Of a stretch of DNA of 64,000 bases, positions 2,197 through 54,723 are shown in pieces. The first letter of the stretch is position 1; each line of letters starts with the position of its first letter. The position numbers and the translations under genes are program-made. This stretch comes from an uncultured Erythrobacter sp. (GTDB taxonomy: Bacteria > Pseudomonadota > Alphaproteobacteria > Sphingomonadales > Sphingomonadaceae). The stretch spans positions 2,157,996 to 2,221,995 of the forward strand of contig NZ_OY284433.1 of assembly GCF_958304185.1 (NCBI RefSeq), written 5' to 3'. The notes beneath the pieces are model-generated. The model had not been told where the DNA came from, did no database searches, and was given only the letters and a program-made list of their open reading frames with translations.

Positions 2197-4911
2197 TCAG
2201 ACAACGGATTTTGGCAGTGCCCGCTTCCATTCATAAAGCAGGTCGAGCGCCTCACGCGGGGTGAGCGCATCGAGATCGGCGTCGCGCAGGGCCTGGGCGA
2301 GTTGCTGTTCGGGTGAGGGGGGTGCCGGTTCGGCGGCCAGCGCGGCGAAGAGCGGCAGATCGCCCAGCCCTGCGGCGATGCCCCCGGTGGCCGTGCGGGT
2401 GGCTTCGAGCTTTTCGAGCACCGCTTTGGCGCGGGCGACCACCGGGGCCGGCACCCCTGCCAACCGCGCGACCGCGAGGCCGTAGGAGCGATCGGCCGGG
2501 CCGTCGGCCAGTTCGTGCAGCAACACCAGATCGCCTTGCCATTCGCGTGCGCGGACATGGTGGAGACTCAGCGCCTCGCAGGTTTCGGCCAGGCGCGCGA
2601 GTTCGTGGTAATGGGTCGCGAACAGACACCGGCAGCGGATCTTGGAATGCACCGCCTCGGCCACCGCCCAGGCGAGCGCCAAGCCATCATAGGTCGATGT
2701 GCCGCGCCCCACTTCATCAAGGATCACGAAGCTGCGCGGGGTGGCCTGCGCCAGAATGGCGGCGGTCTCGACCATTTCGACCATGAAGGTGGAACGGCCC
2801 CGGGCGAGGTTATCGGCCGCGCCCACCCGGCTGAACAACCGGTCGACGAGGCCGACACGAGCCGCCGACGCGGGGACGAAGCACCCCGCCTGCGCCAACA
2901 ACACAATCAGCGCGTTCTGGCGCAGGAAGGTGGACTTGCCGCCCATGTTCGGCCCGCCGATCAGCCACAGGCGATTGGTGTCGGCCAGCTGGCAGTCATT
3001 CGCCACGAACCGCTCACCGGCCTTGGCGAGTGCCGCTTCGACCACGGGATGACGCCCGGCGGTGATGGAAAGGCCTGCGTCCTCGGCAATGTCGGGGCGG
3101 CACCAATCGGCTTCGCTGGCGCGCTCGGCATTGCCGGCGGCGACATCGATCCGGGCGAGCGCGGCGGCGGTGGCGGCGATGGCGTGGCGCGCTGCGACGA
3201 CTTCGGCGACCAGTTCCTCGAAATGCGACTCTTCTGCCGCCAGCGCATGGCCCCCTGCCTCGGCGATGCGGGCGGCTTCCTCGTGCAGCTTCAGCGAGTT
3301 GAACCGCACCGCGCCTGCCATTGTCTGACGGTGGGTGAAGCCACTGTCGGGCGTCATCAGCGCATCGGCATAGCGCGCGCCCACTTCGATGAAATAGCCC
3401 AGCACGCCATTGTGGCGGATCTTGAGCGAGGCGATGCCGGTTTCGTCCCGGTAGCGCGCTTCCATCGCCGCAATCGCGCGGCGCGCATCGCCGGAGGTGG
3501 CGCGCAATTCGTCGAGCGCGGCGTCGTACCCGTCAGCGATAAAGCCGCCGCTTCCGCGATCGGTCGGGGGTGAGGGCACCAGCGCGCGCGTCAGCCAATC
3601 GGTCAGCGCGCCGTGGCCGGTGAGTTTCGCCAGAACGGCATCGAGCAGCGCAGGCCGATCCGGCGCACCGCTCAGCCAATGGTGCAGCCGCATCGCCTCG
3701 GACAGCCCATCGCGCAACTGGCCGAGATCGCGCGGAGAGCCGCGCCCCGCCACCACGCGCCCGAGCGCGCGGCCGAGATCAGGGATGGCGCGCAAGGCCT
3801 CACGCAATTGCGCGCGTTCAATCGGCCGGTCGCGCCAGAACTGCACCAGCCCAAGCCGTGCCTCGATCTGCGCCACATCGAGCAGGGGCGCGGACAAGTC
3901 CTCCGCCAGAAGCCGCGATCCCGCGCCCGTCACGCAGCGATCCACCGCGCCGATCAGGCTGCCCGCGCGCGCGCCGGTGGTGCTTTCAAGGATTTCGAGA
4001 CTCGCCCGCGTCGCCGCATCCATCGCCATGCCCGCCTCGGCCGCGCGCGCCACCGGGGGCAGCAGCAGCGGCAGCTTGCCGCGTCCGACATGGTCGAGAT
4101 AGGCGATCAACCCGCCCGCCGCGCCCAGCATCGCGCGGGAGAAATCGCCGAACGCATCGAGCGTGGCTACACCATGCACCGCCTTCAGCCGCTCAGCCCC
4201 GGCATCGCTGGCGAAAGAGCTGCGCGGGCGGTAGATGATGATGTCGCGAGTCCCCGCGAAGGCGGGGACCTCGTTCAGCAGGGCGCCAGAGTGCCTGAGG
4301 TCCCCGCTTCCGCGGGGACTCGCATCAGGCACTTCGGGGATAATGATTTCGCTCGGGGAGAGCCGCGCCAGCGCCGCGCCGAGCTGATCGGCAGCGCATT
4401 CTTCCAGCACCATCGCGCCGGTGGAGACATCCACCGCAGCAATGCCCACCGTCCCGCGCAATTCCGCGAGCGCCACCAGCACGTTCGCACGGCGCGGTTC
4501 GAGCAGCGCTTCCTCGGTTAGCGTCCCCGCTGTCACCAGCCGCACAATCGCGCGACCGACCAGCACCTTGGAGGACGGCGTGCCTTCGCGCTTGGCCCGC
4601 GCCTTGGCTTCGTCGGGCGTTTCGACCTGTTCGGCGATGGCGACCCGGCAGCCCGCCTTGATCAGCCGCGCGAGATAGCCTTCCGCCGAATGCACCGGCA
4701 CCCCGCACATCGGGATCGGCGCGCCGCCATGTTCGCCCCGGGTGGTCAGCGCAATGTCGAGAATCTGGGCCGCCGTGCGTGCGTCTTCGAAGAACAATTC
4801 GAAGAAATCGCCCATCCGGTAGAACAGCAGCGCATCGCCCGCTTCCTCGCGCAGGGCGAGGTATTGCGCCATCATCGGCGTGGGTTTGGAATCGGGAAGG
4901 GCAGCCATCAC
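2197..4911 (-). CDS. mutS: DNA mismatch repair protein MutS
   Basis: Recognises mismatches and starts methyl-independent or MutL-dependent repair. The 904-residue protein has the N-terminal mismatch-reading motif (FYRMGDFFELFFEDA, with the conserved Phe-x-Glu near residue 35), connector and lever domains, and the ABC-type ATPase with Walker A GGPNMGGKST near residue 650, followed by DEVGRGTSTYDGLA. The C-terminus ends in a typical helical tail. It is somewhat long for the family. Part of the excess is an in-frame insertion at about residues 197-222 that is encoded by a palindromic repeat element (see 4246-4323). The gene is divergent from maeB. Confidence 0.97.
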   Translation of the reverse strand: MMAALPDSKPTPMMAQYLALREEAGDALLFYRMGDFFELFFEDARTAAQILDIALTTRGEHGGAPIPMCGVPVHSAEGYLARLIKAGCRVAIAEQVETPDEAKARAKREGTPSSKVLVGRAIVRLVTAGTLTEEALLEPRRANVLVALAELRGTVGIAAVDVSTGAMVLEECAADQLGAALARLSPSEIIIPEVPDASPRGSGDLRHSGALLNEVPAFAGTRDIIIYRPRSSFASDAGAERLKAVHGVATLDAFGDFSRAMLGAAGGLIAYLDHVGRGKLPLLLPPVARAAEAGMAMDAATRASLEILESTTGARAGSLIGAVDRCVTGAGSRLLAEDLSAPLLDVAQIEARLGLVQFWRDRPIERAQLREALRAIPDLGRALGRVVAGRGSPRDLGQLRDGLSEAMRLHHWLSGAPDRPALLDAVLAKLTGHGALTDWLTRALVPSPPTDRGSGGFIADGYDAALDELRATSGDARRAIAAMEARYRDETGIASLKIRHNGVLGYFIEVGARYADALMTPDSGFTHRQTMAGAVRFNSLKLHEEAARIAEAGGHALAAEESHFEELVAEVVAARHAIAATAAALARIDVAAGNAERASEADWCRPDIAEDAGLSITAGRHPVVEAALAKAGERFVANDCQLADTNRLWLIGGPNMGGKSTFLRQNALIVLLAQAGCFVPASAARVGLVDRLFSRVGAADNLARGRSTFMVEMVETAAILAQATPRSFVILDEVGRGTSTYDGLALAWAVAEAVHSKIRCRCLFATHYHELARLAETCEALSLHHVRAREWQGDLVLLHELADGPADRSYGLAVARLAGVPAPVVARAKAVLEKLEATRTATGGIAAGLGDLPLFAALAAEPAPPSPEQQLAQALRDADLDALTPREALDLLYEWKRALPKSVV
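4246..4323. repeat. palindromic element inserted in frame in mutS
   Basis: Two 27-bp arms (4246-4272 and 4297-4323) are inverted copies of each other with two mismatches, separated by 24 bp. Each arm is itself a hairpin (CCCCGCGAAGGCGGGG and CCCCGCTTCCGCGGGG). The 78 bp equal 26 codons and keep the mutS frame, coding for part of SPRGSGDLRHSGALLNEVP and PAFAGTRD in the connector region. This class of GC-rich palindrome is common between genes in sphingomonads; here it lies inside an essential-type repair gene. Confidence 0.8.
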
Positions 4912-12506: not shown

Positions 12507-12531
12507 CCCGTCAACAATTATGTAGCGCGCT

Positions 12532-12630
12532 GTTCCGGCCCAAAGGGACGCAAGGCCGACCGGCCGCCCGCAGGCGCTCGATCCTGAAAGGATCGAACCG
12601 CGCCGAGGACGAGGGCGCGGAGGCGCCCTC
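12532..12630 (-). repeat. structured repeat element, copy A (3' of ctrA)
   Basis: Read on the minus strand, immediately after the ctrA stop, are: stem P1 GAGGGCGC/GCGCCCTC closing a CTCC loop (12611-12630); the constant stretch TCCTCGGCGC; P2 with inner arms CGATCCT/AGGATCG inside a GGCGC/GCGCC stem; P3 GGCC/GGCC; then a weak P4. The skeleton is nearly identical to copies at 16473 and 52908 while the arms differ and still pair. It lies within the presumed 3' untranslated region of ctrA. Confidence 0.75.
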
Positions 12631-12638
12631 GCAATAAA

Positions 12639-13334
12639 TTACGCCGCTTCGACCACCGCTTCGTCGTCGCGCAGCACGTAGCCACGGCCCCACACGGTTT
12701 CGATGTAGTTCTCACCGCCGCAAGCCAGCGACAGCTTCTTGCGCAGCTTGCAGATGAACACGTCGATGATCTTGAGTTCCGGCTCGTCCATCCCGCCATA
12801 GAGGTGGTTGAGGAACATTTCCTTGGTCAGCGTGGTGCCCTTGCGGAGCGAAAGGAGCTCCAGCATCGCATATTCCTTGCCGGTGAGGTGCACGCGGGCG
12901 CCATCGACTTCGACGGTCTTGGCGTCGAGGTTCACTGCCAGCTTGCCGGTGCGGATGACCGACTGCGAGTGGCCCTTCGAACGGCGCACCACGGCATAGA
13001 TGCGGGCGACCAGTTCTTCGCGGTGGAACGGCTTGGTGACGTAATCGTCAGCGCCGAAGCCGAAGCTGCGGATCTTCGAATCCATTTCCGAAATGCCCGA
13101 GAGGATCAGCACTGGCGTTTGCACCTTGGCAACGCGCAGCTTCTTGAGCACGTCATAGCCATGCATGTCAGGCAGGTTCAGGTCGAGCAGGATGATGTCG
13201 TAATCATACAGCTTGCCGAGATCCAAACCTTCCTCGCCGAGGTCGGTCGAATAGACATTGAAACCTTCGGTGGTGAGCATCAGCTCAATCGCCTTGGCGG
13301 TGGTCGGTTCGTCTTCGATCAGCAGAACGCGCAT
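12639..13334 (-). CDS. ctrA: cell-cycle response regulator CtrA
   Basis: Master cell-cycle and motility regulator of alphaproteobacteria, an OmpR-type response regulator. The 231-residue protein has a receiver domain with the acidic pocket IEDEP and phospho-acceptor Asp51 in [12 protein letters not shown], Lys in VTKPF, and a winged-helix domain with the conserved [17 protein letters not shown] and [12 protein letters not shown]. It ends in Ala-Ala, the terminus that in Caulobacter directs ClpXP degradation (family knowledge). The promoter region carries paired GAGTC sites and CtrA-box-like sequences, implying CcrM- and self-regulation. Structured element A follows the stop codon. Confidence 0.97.
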
Positions 13335-16089: not shown

Positions 16090-16467
16090 ATGATGAAATC
16101 CAATGAGCGGGGCAAAATCGAGGCACTGTCCGCCACCCGGGCGCGAGACTGGCGCAAGGCGATGAGCGATCATGTCGCCTATGGGCTGCTGGCCTATACC
16201 GCGTTGCAAATCTTCGTGACGGTCAAGGCGTTGGCAGAAGGCACGTCGAGCCTGCTGCCCTATTTCGCGCTGGTCGTGTTGGTGGCCGGGATCATCCCGG
16301 TGTGCCGTTGGTTTGAAAAACGCTGGTCGGTGCTGAGCGATGCTGAAGCGGTTGACCCGTCCTACGCTCCCGCCTTCAAACGCGATGTGATGACGCTGTG
16401 GGCGCTGGCGATCGGGCTGCCCTTCGGGCTGACGCTGTTGTTCAAGGCGCTGTTGAGCGTTTTTTGA
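16090..16467 (+). CDS. hypothetical membrane protein
   Basis: A 125-residue protein with about three hydrophobic segments (HVAYGLLAYTALQIFVTV, LLPYFALVVLVAGIIPVC, LWALAIGLPFGLTLLF). The frame is open far upstream across lptB, but that part is antisense shadow. The tandem ATGs at 16090 and 16093 follow a GGGGAG-like ribosome-binding site. I do not recognise a family. Structured repeat element B begins 6 nt after the stop codon. The 250 bp before the gene (15838-16089) hold nothing I can assign beyond a presumed promoter. Confidence 0.7.
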   Translation: MMKSNERGKIEALSATRARDWRKAMSDHVAYGLLAYTALQIFVTVKALAEGTSSLLPYFALVVLVAGIIPVCRWFEKRWSVLSDAEAVDPSYAPAFKRDVMTLWALAIGLPFGLTLLFKALLSVF

Positions 16468-16472
16468 TTTGT

Positions 16473-16568
16473 GAGCGGGCCTCCGCCCGCTCATCCTCGG
16501 CGCTGTTCCTTCGCTACGCTACGGGCGCCTGCGGGCGGCCAGTCGGCCTTGCGGTTGCTGCGCAACCG
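16473..16568 (+). repeat. structured repeat element, copy B
   Basis: P1 arms GAGCGGGC/GCCCGCTC close a CTCC loop (16473-16492). Then come TCCTCGGCGC, a variable insert between GGCGC and GCGCC, the constant TGCGGGCGGCC and AGTCGGCCTTGCG, and P4 CGGTTGC/GCAACCG (16552-16568). Skeleton and order match copies A and C, with different arm sequences. It follows the small membrane-protein gene in sense orientation. Confidence 0.75.
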
Positions 16569-16604
16569 ACATTAGCGCCTCCCTGACCGCCCAGCGGCTA
16601 TCCC

Positions 16605-17138
16605 TTACTTTCCAGCGTTATAACGCTCGATCGCCTCAAGCGTGATCTGACGCGCTTCGGCGGCGTCGCCCCACTTGCCCACGCGCACCCACTTTTCGGC
16701 TTCCAGATCCTTGTAGTGGGTGAAGAAGTGCTCGATCTGCTGGAAGATGATCGAGGGCAGATCGCTCGTTTCGACCACGTCGGCGTAGTAGGGGAAGGTC
16801 TCCTTCACCGGCACGCAGATCAGCTTTTCATCGCCGCCCTGCTCGTCTTCGAGGTTGAGCACCCCGATGGGCCGCGCGCGCACCACGCAGCCGGGGATGA
16901 AGGGCGAGCGCGAGATCACCAGCGCATCGAGCGGATCGCCATCGGGCGAAAGCGTGTGCGGCACGAAGCCGTAATTCGCCGGATAGCGCATCGGCGTGTG
17001 CAGGATGCGGTCAACGAACAGCGCGCCGCTTTCCTTGTCGAATTCATACTTCACCGGCTCGCCCCCGGTGGGCACTTCGATGATGACGTTGAGATCATCG
17101 GGCGGATTGACGCCGGTGGGGATCTTGTCGATGCGCAT
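16605..17138 (-). CDS. ppa: inorganic pyrophosphatase
   Basis: Hydrolyses pyrophosphate to drive biosynthetic reactions in the cytoplasm. The 177-residue length matches family I enzymes. The metal-binding signature DGDPLDALV is present, with further conserved residues in YPANYGFVPHT, KEFDK-like (KYEFDKESGALFVDR) and HYKDLE. The ATG at 17138 is preceded by a purine-rich stretch (AAAAAGAGACC). It is divergent from hisS. Confidence 0.97.
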   Translation of the reverse strand: MRIDKIPTGVNPPDDLNVIIEVPTGGEPVKYEFDKESGALFVDRILHTPMRYPANYGFVPHTLSPDGDPLDALVISRSPFIPGCVVRARPIGVLNLEDEQGGDEKLICVPVKETFPYYADVVETSDLPSIIFQQIEHFFTHYKDLEAEKWVRVGKWGDAAEARQITLEAIERYNAGK

Positions 17139-31144: not shown

Positions 31145-31450
31145 CGGGCCTGTCTGCCTTTTGTGGTCGTGGGCAAGGTCAATCCCTCCGCTCGGGATCG
31201 AGGCCGTGACTAGAGCGTTACCGGGCTGCTGTCACGCCCACCTGACGAGCCAAGTCGAATCGCGATTCATGTTGCGTCGCAATACCGTCACACTCCAGAA
31301 ATCTGCCCAATTTTTGAGCGACTGCCGCCGCTTTGGGCAGAAATTTGCAAGTTTGCGCACGAACCTGCACATTTCCGGGAGTTGTTTGCGTTCTTTGCAA
31401 CAAAAAACGCTTCTTTCGCACTTGCACAATGGGGCCAGTTGCGCCATTTA
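31145..31450. other. non-coding stretch upstream of scoA
   Basis: No convincing coding frame. This is an AT-richer stretch presumably containing the scoA promoter (reading left). It holds one clear dyad, TCTGCCCAA (31302-31310) against TTGGGCAGA (31333-31341), a 9-bp stem with a 22-nt loop, and several TTTGC repeats around 31345-31400. A possible -35 element TTGCAC (31422-31427) starts the candidate sRNA promoter. Confidence 0.5.
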
Positions 31451-31515
31451 GAACCTGCCTTTCAGGCATCCTCTCCCAAACTTTTCAAGCCCGGCACCCA
31501 GTGCCGGGCTTTTTT
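31451..31515 (+). ncRNA. candidate small RNA with intrinsic terminator
   Basis: An intrinsic terminator (AGCCCGGCA/TGCCGGGCT stem followed by six T, ending 31515) has no protein gene upstream on its strand. It is preceded by a short hairpin (CCTGCCTTTCAGG) and a single-stranded-looking stretch with CCTCTCCC, an anti-Shine-Dalgarno-like motif found in several alphaproteobacterial sRNAs. TTGCAC at 31422 with ATTTAG 18 nt later could be the promoter. The 5' end is a guess. Confidence 0.42.
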
Positions 31516-31605
31516 CTTGCCGGGCACAAAATCTCAGGCGAGGGCGCGCCGGGCTTTTTTCTTGCTTGGCACAATACCCCAAGCGAGGCCGTGCCGGGTG
31601 CTTTT
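31503..31605 (+). repeat. 45-bp tandem repeat, about 2.3 copies, terminator-like
   Basis: Units start at 31503, 31548 and 31593, an exact 45-bp period. Each begins GCCGGG followed by a T-rich run (GCTTTTTTCTTGC in the first two, TGCTTTTT in the third); the first two share GGCACAA and end with GCGAGG. The first unit supplies the 3' arm of the sRNA terminator, so the array looks like duplicated terminator halves. Confidence 0.7.
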
Positions 31606-34101: not shown

Positions 34102-34182
34102 CGTCATCCCAGCGAAAGCTGGGACCTAGAGCGACAAAGTGCAGCGTTCGCCGCCCTAGGCCCCAGCTTTCGCTGGGGTGAC
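34102..34182. repeat. dispersed inverted-repeat element next to parS
   Basis: Two 28-bp arms (34102-34129 and 34155-34182) are inverted copies with two mismatches, built on CCCAGCGAAAGCTGGG and CCCCAGCTTTCGCTGGGG. A partial third copy (CTGGGGTGACG) follows at about 34193-34203. It belongs to the common sphingomonad intergenic palindrome class. Confidence 0.75.
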
Positions 34183-34209
34183 GAAAAAAGGACTGGGGTG
34201 ACGATAAGC

Positions 34210-52866: not shown

Positions 52867-52900
52867 GGCCGGAGTAGCGCAAGCTCTCCGGCCTTTTTTT
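52867..52900 (+). terminator. intrinsic terminator of glnK-amtB
   Basis: Perfect 8-bp stem GGCCGGAG/CTCCGGCC with an 11-nt loop is followed by seven T. Confidence 0.88.
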
Positions 52901-52907
52901 GTGTTTC

Positions 52908-53008
52908 GCTCGCCCCTCCGGGCGAGCGTCCTCGGCGCTGTTTCGCGCGTGCCGCGCGAGCGCCTGCGGGCGGGCGGTCGCCGTTGCGGCCCGTCCTTCG
53001 ACGGGCCG
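52908..53008 (+). repeat. structured repeat element, copy C
   Basis: P1 GCTCGCCC/GGGCGAGC closes a CTCC loop (52908-52927). TCCTCGGCGC follows, then P2 with inner arms TCGCGCG/CGCGCGA inside GGCGC/GCGCC, then TGCGGGCGGGCGGTCG as P3. P4 is CGGCCCGTC/GACGGGCCG (52987-53008). The skeleton matches copies A and B while every variable stem has new, still complementary arms. It begins 8 nt after the amtB terminator and reads in the amtB direction. Confidence 0.78.
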
Positions 53009-53037
53009 TAGTCAGCACCGTTGGGAGTGCTCGTGCT

Positions 53038-53117
53038 GGTCCGGGCGCGCAGCGACCGCAAGGCCGGCCGGCCGCCGCGCCTTATGGCGCGTAAGCCAAG
53101 CGGCCCGGACGGGCCGC
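53038..53117 (-). repeat. structured repeat element, divergent copy D
   Basis: On the minus strand, 22 nt after the GMC oxidoreductase stop: P1 GCGGCCC/GGGCCGC with a GTCC loop, P2 CGCGCC/GGCGCG with an ATAA apex, the core GCGGCCGGCCGGCCTTGCGG, then a GGTC...GACC stem. It lacks the TCCTCGGCGC linker but keeps order and core. It is convergent with copy C. Confidence 0.55.
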
Positions 53118-53139
53118 GCCCGGCGCTTGAGGGCGTGGA

Positions 53140-54723
53140 CTATTCAGACGCCATCACGAAGTCAGCGCAACGCTCTCCGATCATGATGCTCGGCGCGTTG
53201 GTGTTGCCGCTGACGAGCTTGGGCATGATGCTCGCATCCGCCACCCACAGACCCTCCAGCCCGTTCAGCTTCAGCGTCGGATCGACCACGGCGTCCGGGT
53301 CGTTGCCCATCCGGCAGGTGCCGACAGGGTGATAGACCGAATCCGAGCGATTGCGGATCAGCTGGTCCAGCGCAGCATCATCATGCAGGTCGACCGGGTG
53401 GCGGTCCTTCGGGCCGAACGCCTGCATCGGCGGCGCTTCGGCAATCCGGTGCGACAGGCGCACACCGGCGCGTAGCACCGCCATGTCGCGATCATCGGCG
53501 AGGAAGTTGGGATCGATCACCGGCGCGGCGGCCGCATCGCCGCTCCCCAGCCGCACGGTGCCGCGGCTCTCTGGCCGCAGCACGCAGGCGTGGAGCGAGA
53601 AGCCATGCGCCTTCACCTTCTCGCGCCCGTGATCCTCCAGGACCGCAGGCACGAAATGCCACTGCACGTCAGGGGCGGGGCTATCGGGCATCACGCTCCA
53701 GAACCCGCCCGCCTCGGCATAGGGCGTGGTCATCACCCCCGTTCGCTTGCGGCGGTGCTCAACCATGGCCGCCGCCATCTTGAGCGTGCCTTTGAGTGTG
53801 CTGCCGATCGGAATGTCGCTCTCCGTCTCCCAGCCGGAGACGTAGTCGATATGATCCTGCAAGTTGCCGCCGACCGCCGGGCGATCCAGCACCACGTCGA
53901 TCCCGTGCGCCTTCAGGTGATCGGCCGGGCCGATGCCCGACAGCATCAGGATTTGCGGAGAGTTGAATGCGCCTGCGCTCAGCACAACACCGCGCCGGGC
54001 GAGCAGCGTTTCTGACTGGCCCCCGCGACGGATCTGCACGCCGGTGACGCGCCCGCCCTCGATCACCAGCTTCTCGACCAGCGTATCGGTGCGCACCGCG
54101 AAATTGCCGGCATCGCGGATCGGCTCGACATAGGCGCGGGCCGCTGACCAGCGTTCACCTTTGCGCTGCGTGACCTGATAAAGACCGAAGCCCTCCTGGT
54201 GCGCGCCGTTGAAATCCCCATTGGTGCGCAGCTGGAGCGCGGCGGCCGCTTCGACAAAGGCGTAGGAGGAAGGGTTGGCGGCGGTCTGATCGGACACGAA
54301 CAAGGGCCCGCCCGCGCCGTGGAAATCGTCCCCCCCGCGCTCGTTCGCCTCGGCGCGGCGGAAGTAGGGGAGCACGTCGTCATAGGCCCAGCCGGAGCAG
54401 CCCATCGCGGCCCAGTTGTCGTAATCCCAGCGGTTGCCGCGGATATAGACCATTGCGTTGATCGCCGAGGAGCCGCCGAGCCCGCGTCCGCGTGGCTGGT
54501 ATCCGGTGCGGCCGTTCAGCCCCTTTTGCGGGACGGTTTCATAGCGGTAGTTCGACTTTTCGGGGATGAAGGGCATGAAGCCCGGCGTCTTGATCCAGAC
54601 ATTGTCGTTGCGCCCGCCCGCTTCCAGCAGACACACCCGCCGCGTGCCATCTACCGCGAGCCGCCCTGCGACAGCGCTACCGGCACTGCCACCGCCAATG
54701 ACGATGTAGTCGAAACTTTCCAT
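53140..54723 (-). CDS. GMC-family FAD oxidoreductase (choline dehydrogenase-like)
   Basis: A 527-residue flavoprotein. The FAD-binding GGGSAGSAVAGRLA is at the N-terminus, the GMC signatures are RGRGLGGSSAINAMVYIRG and SAGAFNSPQILMLSGIGPA, and the catalytic His lies in VYHPVGTCRMGNDP. The closing block TNAPSIMIGERCADFV is typical. It oxidises an alcohol; the substrate (choline, long-chain alcohol, polyethylene glycol) cannot be told. It follows the sterol-desaturase-like gene by 24 nt on the same strand, which suggests lipid or alcohol substrates. Confidence 0.94.
   Translation of the reverse strand: MESFDYIVIGGGSAGSAVAGRLAVDGTRRVCLLEAGGRNDNVWIKTPGFMPFIPEKSNYRYETVPQKGLNGRTGYQPRGRGLGGSSAINAMVYIRGNRWDYDNWAAMGCSGWAYDDVLPYFRRAEANERGGDDFHGAGGPLFVSDQTAANPSSYAFVEAAAALQLRTNGDFNGAHQEGFGLYQVTQRKGERWSAARAYVEPIRDAGNFAVRTDTLVEKLVIEGGRVTGVQIRRGGQSETLLARRGVVLSAGAFNSPQILMLSGIGPADHLKAHGIDVVLDRPAVGGNLQDHIDYVSGWETESDIPIGSTLKGTLKMAAAMVEHRRKRTGVMTTPYAEAGGFWSVMPDSPAPDVQWHFVPAVLEDHGREKVKAHGFSLHACVLRPESRGTVRLGSGDAAAAPVIDPNFLADDRDMAVLRAGVRLSHRIAEAPPMQAFGPKDRHPVDLHDDAALDQLIRNRSDSVYHPVGTCRMGNDPDAVVDPTLKLNGLEGLWVADASIMPKLVSGNTNAPSIMIGERCADFVMASE

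Follow-up and report, generated by a model that had tools for sequence, protein, structure and literature searches.

The window, a stretch of 64,000 nucleotides from the genome of an uncultured Erythrobacter sp., carries members of a family of interspersed four-hairpin repeats, which sit directly behind stop codons, are gained and lost at orthologous sites, and vary the arms of their hairpins whilst keeping them paired. We propose that the family is a repeat of the REP/BIME kind acting at gene 3' ends, where it would tune ribosome release and 3'-end decay, and we give this reading a probability of roughly one half.

Copies in the window and anatomy of the unit

The element order proposed in a sequence-only reading of the window, P1 with a CTCC loop, TCCTCGGCGC, P2, GCGCCTGCGGGCGG, P3, TTGCG and P4, was borne out for copies A, B and C. 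Copy A is a single type I element at 12525..12638 on the minus strand (model match 12548-12634, 99.7 bits), which starts directly after the stop codon (12639-12641) of ctrA (CtrA by NCBIfam NF045991) and has a terminator-like hairpin (GCCCGGGGCCTTGGCTCCGGGCG TTTGCG) downstream. Copy B, also a single type I element, occupies 16468..16572 on the plus strand (model match 16469-16554, 103.5 bits); the match starts 1 nt past the stop TGA (16465-16467) of an ORF without a Pfam or NCBIfam match, which is convergent with an inorganic pyrophosphatase gene (16605-17138, minus strand). In the sequence and the model scan, P1 has 9 bp and a CTCC loop in both A (12610..12631, minus strand) and B (16472..16493, plus strand). 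P2 of B is an imperfect hairpin (CTTCGCTACGCTACGG). The third site is an inverted composite, C-D (52901..53139; sequence, model scan and type pattern), in which a type I half on the plus strand faces a type IV half on the minus strand; composites had no place in the sequence-only reading, and C and D are the two halves of this one. Copy C (52904..53008, plus strand; model match 52904-52989, 80.4 bits) is laid out as P1 at 52907-52928, the core TCCTCGGCGC at 52929-52938 and P2 to 52964, then CTGCGGGCGG, P3, TTGCGG and P4 to 53008. Directly before it, behind an ammonium transporter gene (Amt by NCBIfam TIGR00836), an intrinsic-terminator-like hairpin with T7 was read from the sequence at 52867..52900 on the plus strand. 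Copy C is 134 nt past the amt stop, beyond this terminator, and is anchored to a stop codon only via D, the divergent half (53040..53139, minus strand; model match 53056-53121, 19.5 bits), whose first base adjoins the TAG (53140-53142) of a GMC oxidoreductase gene (53140-54723, minus strand) and so fixes the right end of the composite. The position of C is thus explained by its being half of a composite whose partner directly follows the oxidoreductase stop. D had been listed as a fourth copy: the P3/TTGCGG/P4 part and a P1 with a GTCC loop are indeed common to it and the others, but the rest is not shared, and D is of a variant whose middle part contains TTGGCTTACGCGCCATAAGGCGCGGCGGCCGG. All three sites lie between convergent genes.

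The scores given above were obtained by scanning the window, unfiltered, with R1, a covariance model trained on six exact-core copies of the own genome, A, B and C included; these three have E values of 2.7e-19 to 1.2e-14, and the fourth match, D, has an E value of 0.024, with noise from 15.4 bits down. Since A, B and C are training copies they match R1 by construction, and independent evidence must come from elsewhere. The exact core pattern occurs six times in the own genome and the pattern read backwards does not occur there. The unit is about 100 bases long and can be written as P1-UCCUCG-P2-CUGCGGG-P3-UUGCGG-P4. In the consensus, the 5' part consists of the stop codon, a leader YYTGNT, TKCG, P1 (9 bp, loop CTCC or ATCC) and UCCUCG, and the 3' part of P2 (inner hairpin variable), CUGCGGGCG, P3 (4 bp, loop often GGUC), CUUGCGG and P4, the last often followed by a short CAGCGC. 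Sorted by author-made type patterns, 219 unique copies comprise 162 of type I (CCTCGGNGC), 15 of type II (CTCGCTCA; P1 of 8 bp), 9 of type III (CTCGCTA) and 33 that are other or altered. Type IV (TTGGCTTNCGCGCC), for which a pattern of its own was used, was found besides D at four further loci (L055, L071, L115 and L243), together with one chance match. An anti-Shine-Dalgarno role of the CCTCC loop was dropped on inspection; ATCC is the second commonest loop (37/157).

A family with rewritten, paired arms

Folding of single copies as RNA gave z values against shuffles of -2.2 for B, -2.4 for A, -3.5 for C and -2.0 for D; as this is only moderately above shuffles and competing folds exist, the case for structure rests on comparison. 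The expected covariation among copies proved strong. In an alignment of 130 distinct copies, which was fitted to the structure and therefore favours these figures, standard pairs fill 97.8% of the paired cells as against 74.8% after shuffling, double-sided changes occur in 15 of 18 pairs, and the covariation score is 0.505 as against 0.108 shuffled and at most 0.050 in controls with a slid partner. P1 has 82 different 5' arms by position in 166 unique copies and double changes in eight of its nine pairs, many of them swaps of C-G to G-C. The site B copies of the own genome and G028 have different P1 and P2 hairpins and are nearly identical in P3, P4 and the unpaired core. Among eleven ortholog groups (ctrA being entered twice), the mean difference of the 5' arm is 0.19-0.35 in nine, 0.0 in one and 0.56 in one, with seven to nine of the nine P1 pairs kept; the rows used are those with CCTC behind P1 (e.g. 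9/10, 3/5 and 2/4), so that the near-zero difference of the core is partly built in. Gene conversion that homogenises P1 within a genome was not seen: arms are identical in 12 of 496 pairs within the own genome and in 126 of 5408 pairs against other genomes.

Further copies in related genomes, anticipated by the sequence-only reading, were found with covariance models in the own genome, the genus and the order. R1 matches at least 51 places of the own genome at E <= 1, at least 41 of them at E <= 1e-3, when the best 150 of 4835 first-look candidates are scored. At E <= 0.01, it has a match in all 37 genomes of the own genus (own genome included; 1 to 48 each) and in two of 24 genomes that belong to other families within the order, where the match is single and weak (61 genomes searched altogether). 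With a wider model (R2), built from 132 sequences, and a limit of E <= 0.001, 69 of the 296 genomes searched in the order have a match; 23 belong to the own genus and 46 do not, and the 69 fall within the same family, in 16 of 79 genera; as the best 15 candidates per genome were scored, copy numbers from this search are lower bounds. There is no own-genus genome among the 20 listed of the 227 without a match. Beyond the order, a scan with the exact core pattern only gave at least 117 stretches; among the 80 listed, the named genomes are mostly Erythrobacter, Porphyrobacter, Qipengyuania, Tsuneonella and Aurantiacibacter, with Altererythrobacter, Pelagerythrobacter, Parerythrobacter and Alteraurantiacibacter as further genera. 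Seven listed loci come from clearly unrelated organisms (L074, L079, L084, L085, L123, L125 and L127) and are taken as chance, since they have no model match at E <= 0.001. To date, copies are documented only from a clade around Erythrobacter.

The earlier statement that no named RNA family fits also stands, there being no Rfam match to the element, in the window or at four loci. Over the gathering threshold, the window contains only RF00519 (suhB/mmgR sRNA; 31450-31525, plus strand, 49.8 bits) and nothing at A-D; at E <= 2, the four loci gave one weak match outside the element (sR32, 15.8 bits versus 40), and membership of an Rfam family was rejected with no family over its gathering threshold. 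A 45-base direct repeat with GCCGGGCTTTTTTCTTGC (31503-31592) overlaps the end of the RF00519 match. A literature search on repeats, structured RNAs, the clade, Term-seq and sRNAs returned no titles on this family, which apparently has no existing name; the search was at title level, with much subscription literature outside its reach, and does not establish absence from print.

Placement behind stop codons and turnover at orthologous sites

The most telling feature of the family, absent from the sequence-only reading, is its anchoring to stop codons. Gene calls were made with a crude, home-made gene finder, and the loci stem mostly from the matches with the best scores. Placed in this way, 88 of the 219 unique copies lie between convergent genes, 12 between divergent genes and 11 at locus edges; between co-directional genes, where 108 of the 208 placeable copies are found, 80 run along and 28 against the gene direction (p 6e-7). 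Where a stop codon lies upstream on the same strand, 117 of 168 copies start within 9 nt past it (mode 6 nt; 8 of the 117 overlap the stop), whilst uniform placement in the same gaps predicts 17.6 and reached at most 30 in 1000 draws; the remaining 51 are not within 9 nt. An earlier count of 163 copies agrees: 133 have a gene upstream on the same strand, and 95 of these 133 start within 9 nt past its stop, five of the 95 overlapping it. At the modal spacing P1 starts about 10 nt past the stop; for terminator hairpins the median start is 48.5 nt (n=40). Several genes carry the element recurrently, as orthologs in several species or genera: RsfS at 10 loci, NusG at 7 (one own site being counted twice), CtrA, a LytTR regulator and a HerA-like protein at 6 each and glutaredoxin at 5, with names assigned by NCBIfam and Pfam. 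The carriers are mixed housekeeping genes and form no regulon. Five copies, including those behind rplA and nusG, lie within 6.4 kb at G000 C1:1651105-1657462.

Inward-facing pairs were found at 25 of 137 sites. The 24 composites listed span 201-293 bp, have a roughly mirrored order and in many cases share the outer ends TTTGTTTGCG ... CGCAAACAA; of the ten between co-directional genes, eight have a stop within 15 nt of one of their ends. With regard to the features of MITEs, inverted ends are present in the composites and in none of the single copies, and no target-site duplication was found in comparisons that had no close empty site. Copies are also repeated directly in tandem, at a period of about 102-106 bases, at G000 C2:112900-113093 and C1:1655251-1655448.

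The sequence-only reading had likewise not seen the family as a REP/BIME-like repeat that is gained and lost, which is evident at ctrA. Among 31 genomes of the genus searched, 28 have a readable ctrA stop codon, and behind it ten carry the element (L213, L243, which is of type IV, L244, L245, L246, L248, L249, L250, L252 and L268), 17 do not, and one is ambiguous (L251). The model matches the own copy and those in L244, L245, L246, L248, L249, L250 and L252, and L243 weakly; the element in L268 has a large deletion and was recognised by eye. Most sites without the element have a terminator-like hairpin close downstream, and in one of them (L247) a P4-like hairpin is followed by the T-run TTTT. 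Judged by eye, a GC-rich terminator hairpin is kept past the element in seven of the ten carriers (L213, L243, L246, L248, L249, L250 and L268), and in the own genome the element separates the stop codon from a terminator shared with relatives lacking the element. Across the family, 30 ctrA loci (29 readable) show the element by eye in the own locus only; two loci of other genera, L103 and L134, have it behind ctrA. At L231 (G349), in another genus, the ctrA stop is followed by a different repeat with an ATCC-loop hairpin and CCCTGCGGGCG segments (TTTGTTTGGCCCCTGCGGGCGCAGGCCATCCGGCCTGC), which perhaps represents a sister family. At site B, the position is occupied in four of five relatives, by single or composite elements whose types differ, and in the fifth (G010) there is no element and another gene is present. 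The flanks of site C were not found in 15 stretches of five relatives, and only L115 (Porphyrobacter sp. UBA7686) was seen to carry this C-D pair at that gene end.

Sense RNA, DNA palindromes and the proposed role

An RNA helix tolerates G-U and does not tolerate A-C, and mismatches in 215 unique copies were counted in the sense of the upstream gene. P1 has 9 G.T against 26 A.C (118 distinct hairpins, p 0.006), P2 7 against 0 (79 of the 215 copies parsed, 56 distinct), P3 9 against 4 (46 distinct) and P4 17 against 11 (102 distinct), which amounts to 33 against 37 for P1, P2 and P4 pooled and 42 against 41 with P3. In the control, hairpins before T-runs at the same loci, there are 41 G.T against 11 A.C (82 distinct, p 4e-5); as the copies are related, these p values are too small by an uncertain factor. 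The bias in P1 speaks against plain selection on the sense transcript, and the mismatches in P2 lean towards RNA where those in P1 lean away from it. The earlier description of the hairpins as carrying the signature of selection on structure consequently keeps its pairing and covariation but loses selection on a sense RNA, for which P1 shows no wobble preference. The pairing of P1 could be kept at the DNA level, via a transcript of the other strand, or by template switching. There is a warning in this, as the strong covariation alone would have passed for a new RNA, whilst the wobble test gives P1 no support as sense RNA.

REPs that are linked to a RAYT carry a GTAG or GGAG tetranucleotide at the foot of the hairpin, and REPINs are paired inverted REPs that form a unit and depend on RAYT. 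Our family resembles a REPIN in having an inverted pair as a unit, but the transposase that a REPIN needs is missing: RAYT/Y1 searches gave no match in the own genome and none in 57 of 61 genomes of the genus (four positive), with a match in 5 of 14 control genomes, and in G001, which has six Y1 matches, the only element is a weak one. A RAYT-linked REP in the strict sense was thus rejected. As a palindromic intergenic repeat of at least 41 copies, partly in inverted composites, the family behaves as REPs and BIMEs do, and as the RAYT is lacking we file it with them by behaviour and not by membership. The RIME and ABC elements of Rhizobium are likewise alphaproteobacterial and intergenic, mosaics that contain large palindromes, and the likeness is one of description. 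The nearest, as judged by behaviour, are the REP/PU and BIME repeats of E. coli, which are also short intergenic palindromes in many copies, with inverted composites, at gene 3' ends; here, in contrast, the unit has four hairpins in about 100 bases, fixed unpaired segments, freely rewritten arms, a very sharp spacing from the stop and mostly no RAYT. According to the passages of PMC12306157 that deal with Liang et al. 2015, ribosomes in E. coli are stalled by REPs that lie no more than 15 nt from a stop codon, and 260 of 496 REPs were assigned a role in translation; in its own E. coli survey, only 446 of 4,072 predicted REPs have a stop within 15 nt. A table in the same source (RepRanger) gives Erythrobacter cryptus 3,055 predicted REPs, a generic palindrome count, and the accompanying passages contain no Erythrobacter family, consensus or stop-codon analysis. 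Br-REP1 and Br-REP2 of Bradyrhizobium, as outlined in PMC5082802, are likewise alphaproteobacterial repeats in 3' UTRs, with fast turnover between related species; Br-REP1 was first seen between convergent genes and has three palindromes in a row. Their conserved part is a fixed palindrome (CCGGAATCTCGAGATTCCGG) at about 200 sites, whereas in our family the stems vary and the unpaired parts are fixed, and the consensus printed there is unlike ours when compared by eye rather than by alignment.

In the mechanism we propose, the element would be transcribed together with the upstream gene and open its 3' untranslated region, ahead of the terminator. As P1 lies about 10 bases past the stop, where a REP hairpin stalls the terminating ribosome in E. 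coli, the element most likely tunes ribosome release and 3'-end mRNA decay of the upstream gene, by analogy with those repeats. Copies would spread rarely, by a route other than RAYT, and would survive mainly where the hairpin adjoins a stop codon. Counting against such a role are the missing RNA wobble bias in P1, the very helix next to the stop, the copies directed against two co-directional neighbours (28/208) or lying between divergent genes, the distance of C from the amt stop, the mixed nature of the genes, the 51 copies off the stop, the small share of predicted E. coli REPs that the PMC12306157 survey places near one, and the failure to find a target-site duplication or a mobiliser.

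The same observations could be accounted for if the copies were selfish DNA palindromes, whose single-stranded or cruciform hairpins are the sites of a recombinase or transposase that prefers gene 3' ends or is tolerated only there, so that position and pairing serve transposition and not the host mRNA. We regard this as possible, at well below even odds. The inverted composites with their matching outer ends, the placement of eight in ten of the co-directional ones by a stop, the gain and loss at ctrA, the tandem copies and the lack of a sense-strand wobble preference in P1 all agree with it. Yet neither the own genome nor 57 of the 61 genus genomes has a Y1/RAYT match, the six-Y1 genome is nearly devoid of elements, there is no sign of a recent burst (identical P1 arms are no commoner among own copies than between these and the copies of other genomes), and the sharp 0-9 nt spacing is not what random insertion produces. 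An autonomous transposon with these ends was rejected, with no inward pair 0.5-5 kb apart among the 51 listed own-genome matches, and so was a phage or plasmid origin, with no match to one 106-base query in plasmid or phage records. We consider it improbable that template switching at DNA palindromes, a mutation mechanism outlined in PMC8794818, produced perfect pairing without selection on structure by re-copying one arm from the other. It would account for the few wobble intermediates in P1 (9 G.T in 118 hairpins, against 41 in 82 terminator hairpins) and for the double changes with their C-G to G-C swaps; at site B, compared via its flanks, P1 and P2 change between the own genome and G028 whilst the unpaired segments stay nearly the same, a contrast that template switching alone does not explain; copying one arm does not change both. 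In other copies and ortholog groups the contrast is partly built in, because the model that finds them rewards fixed segments. Even less credible, and in our view very improbable, is a Rho-independent or bidirectional terminator module for convergent genes, which is suggested by the three window sites, by the 88 of 208 placeable copies between such genes and by the hairpin with TTTT in L247. No T-run directly follows P1-P4 in the pairs and sites read by eye, and the linker of the L042 composite has a separate hairpin with T5. Moreover, a separate terminator hairpin lies downstream in seven of ten carriers at ctrA and another precedes C, and co-directional genes flank 108 of the 208 copies, among them one behind nusG, where the next gene follows after 48 nt.

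Going beyond our preferred reading of a REP/BIME-like repeat at gene 3' ends, we entertain as a doubtful extension that the family is a lineage-wide class of 3'-end elements which reads translation termination. It would be a modular multi-hairpin platform with fixed unpaired segments as possible protein or ribosome contacts, set exactly behind the stops of housekeeping genes (nusG, rplA, rsfS, def, purH and ctrA). Selection would maintain it through its pairing only, and it would spread by a RAYT-independent mechanism aimed at stop codons. The clustering of REP-like palindromes at stop codons is an unsolved problem in the field; the sharp spacing, the missing usual transposase, the occupied and empty orthologous sites and the arms that vary but stay paired make selection versus mobility, and RNA versus DNA, directly testable in this family. 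Two other long inverted repeats are present in the window, one at 34102-34183 with 8 bases between the arms (CGTCATCCCAGCGAAAGCTGGG...) and one at 4246-4323 with 24 bases between the arms (GCGAGTCCCCGCGAAGGCGGGGACCTC), and these are perhaps other palindromic repeats.
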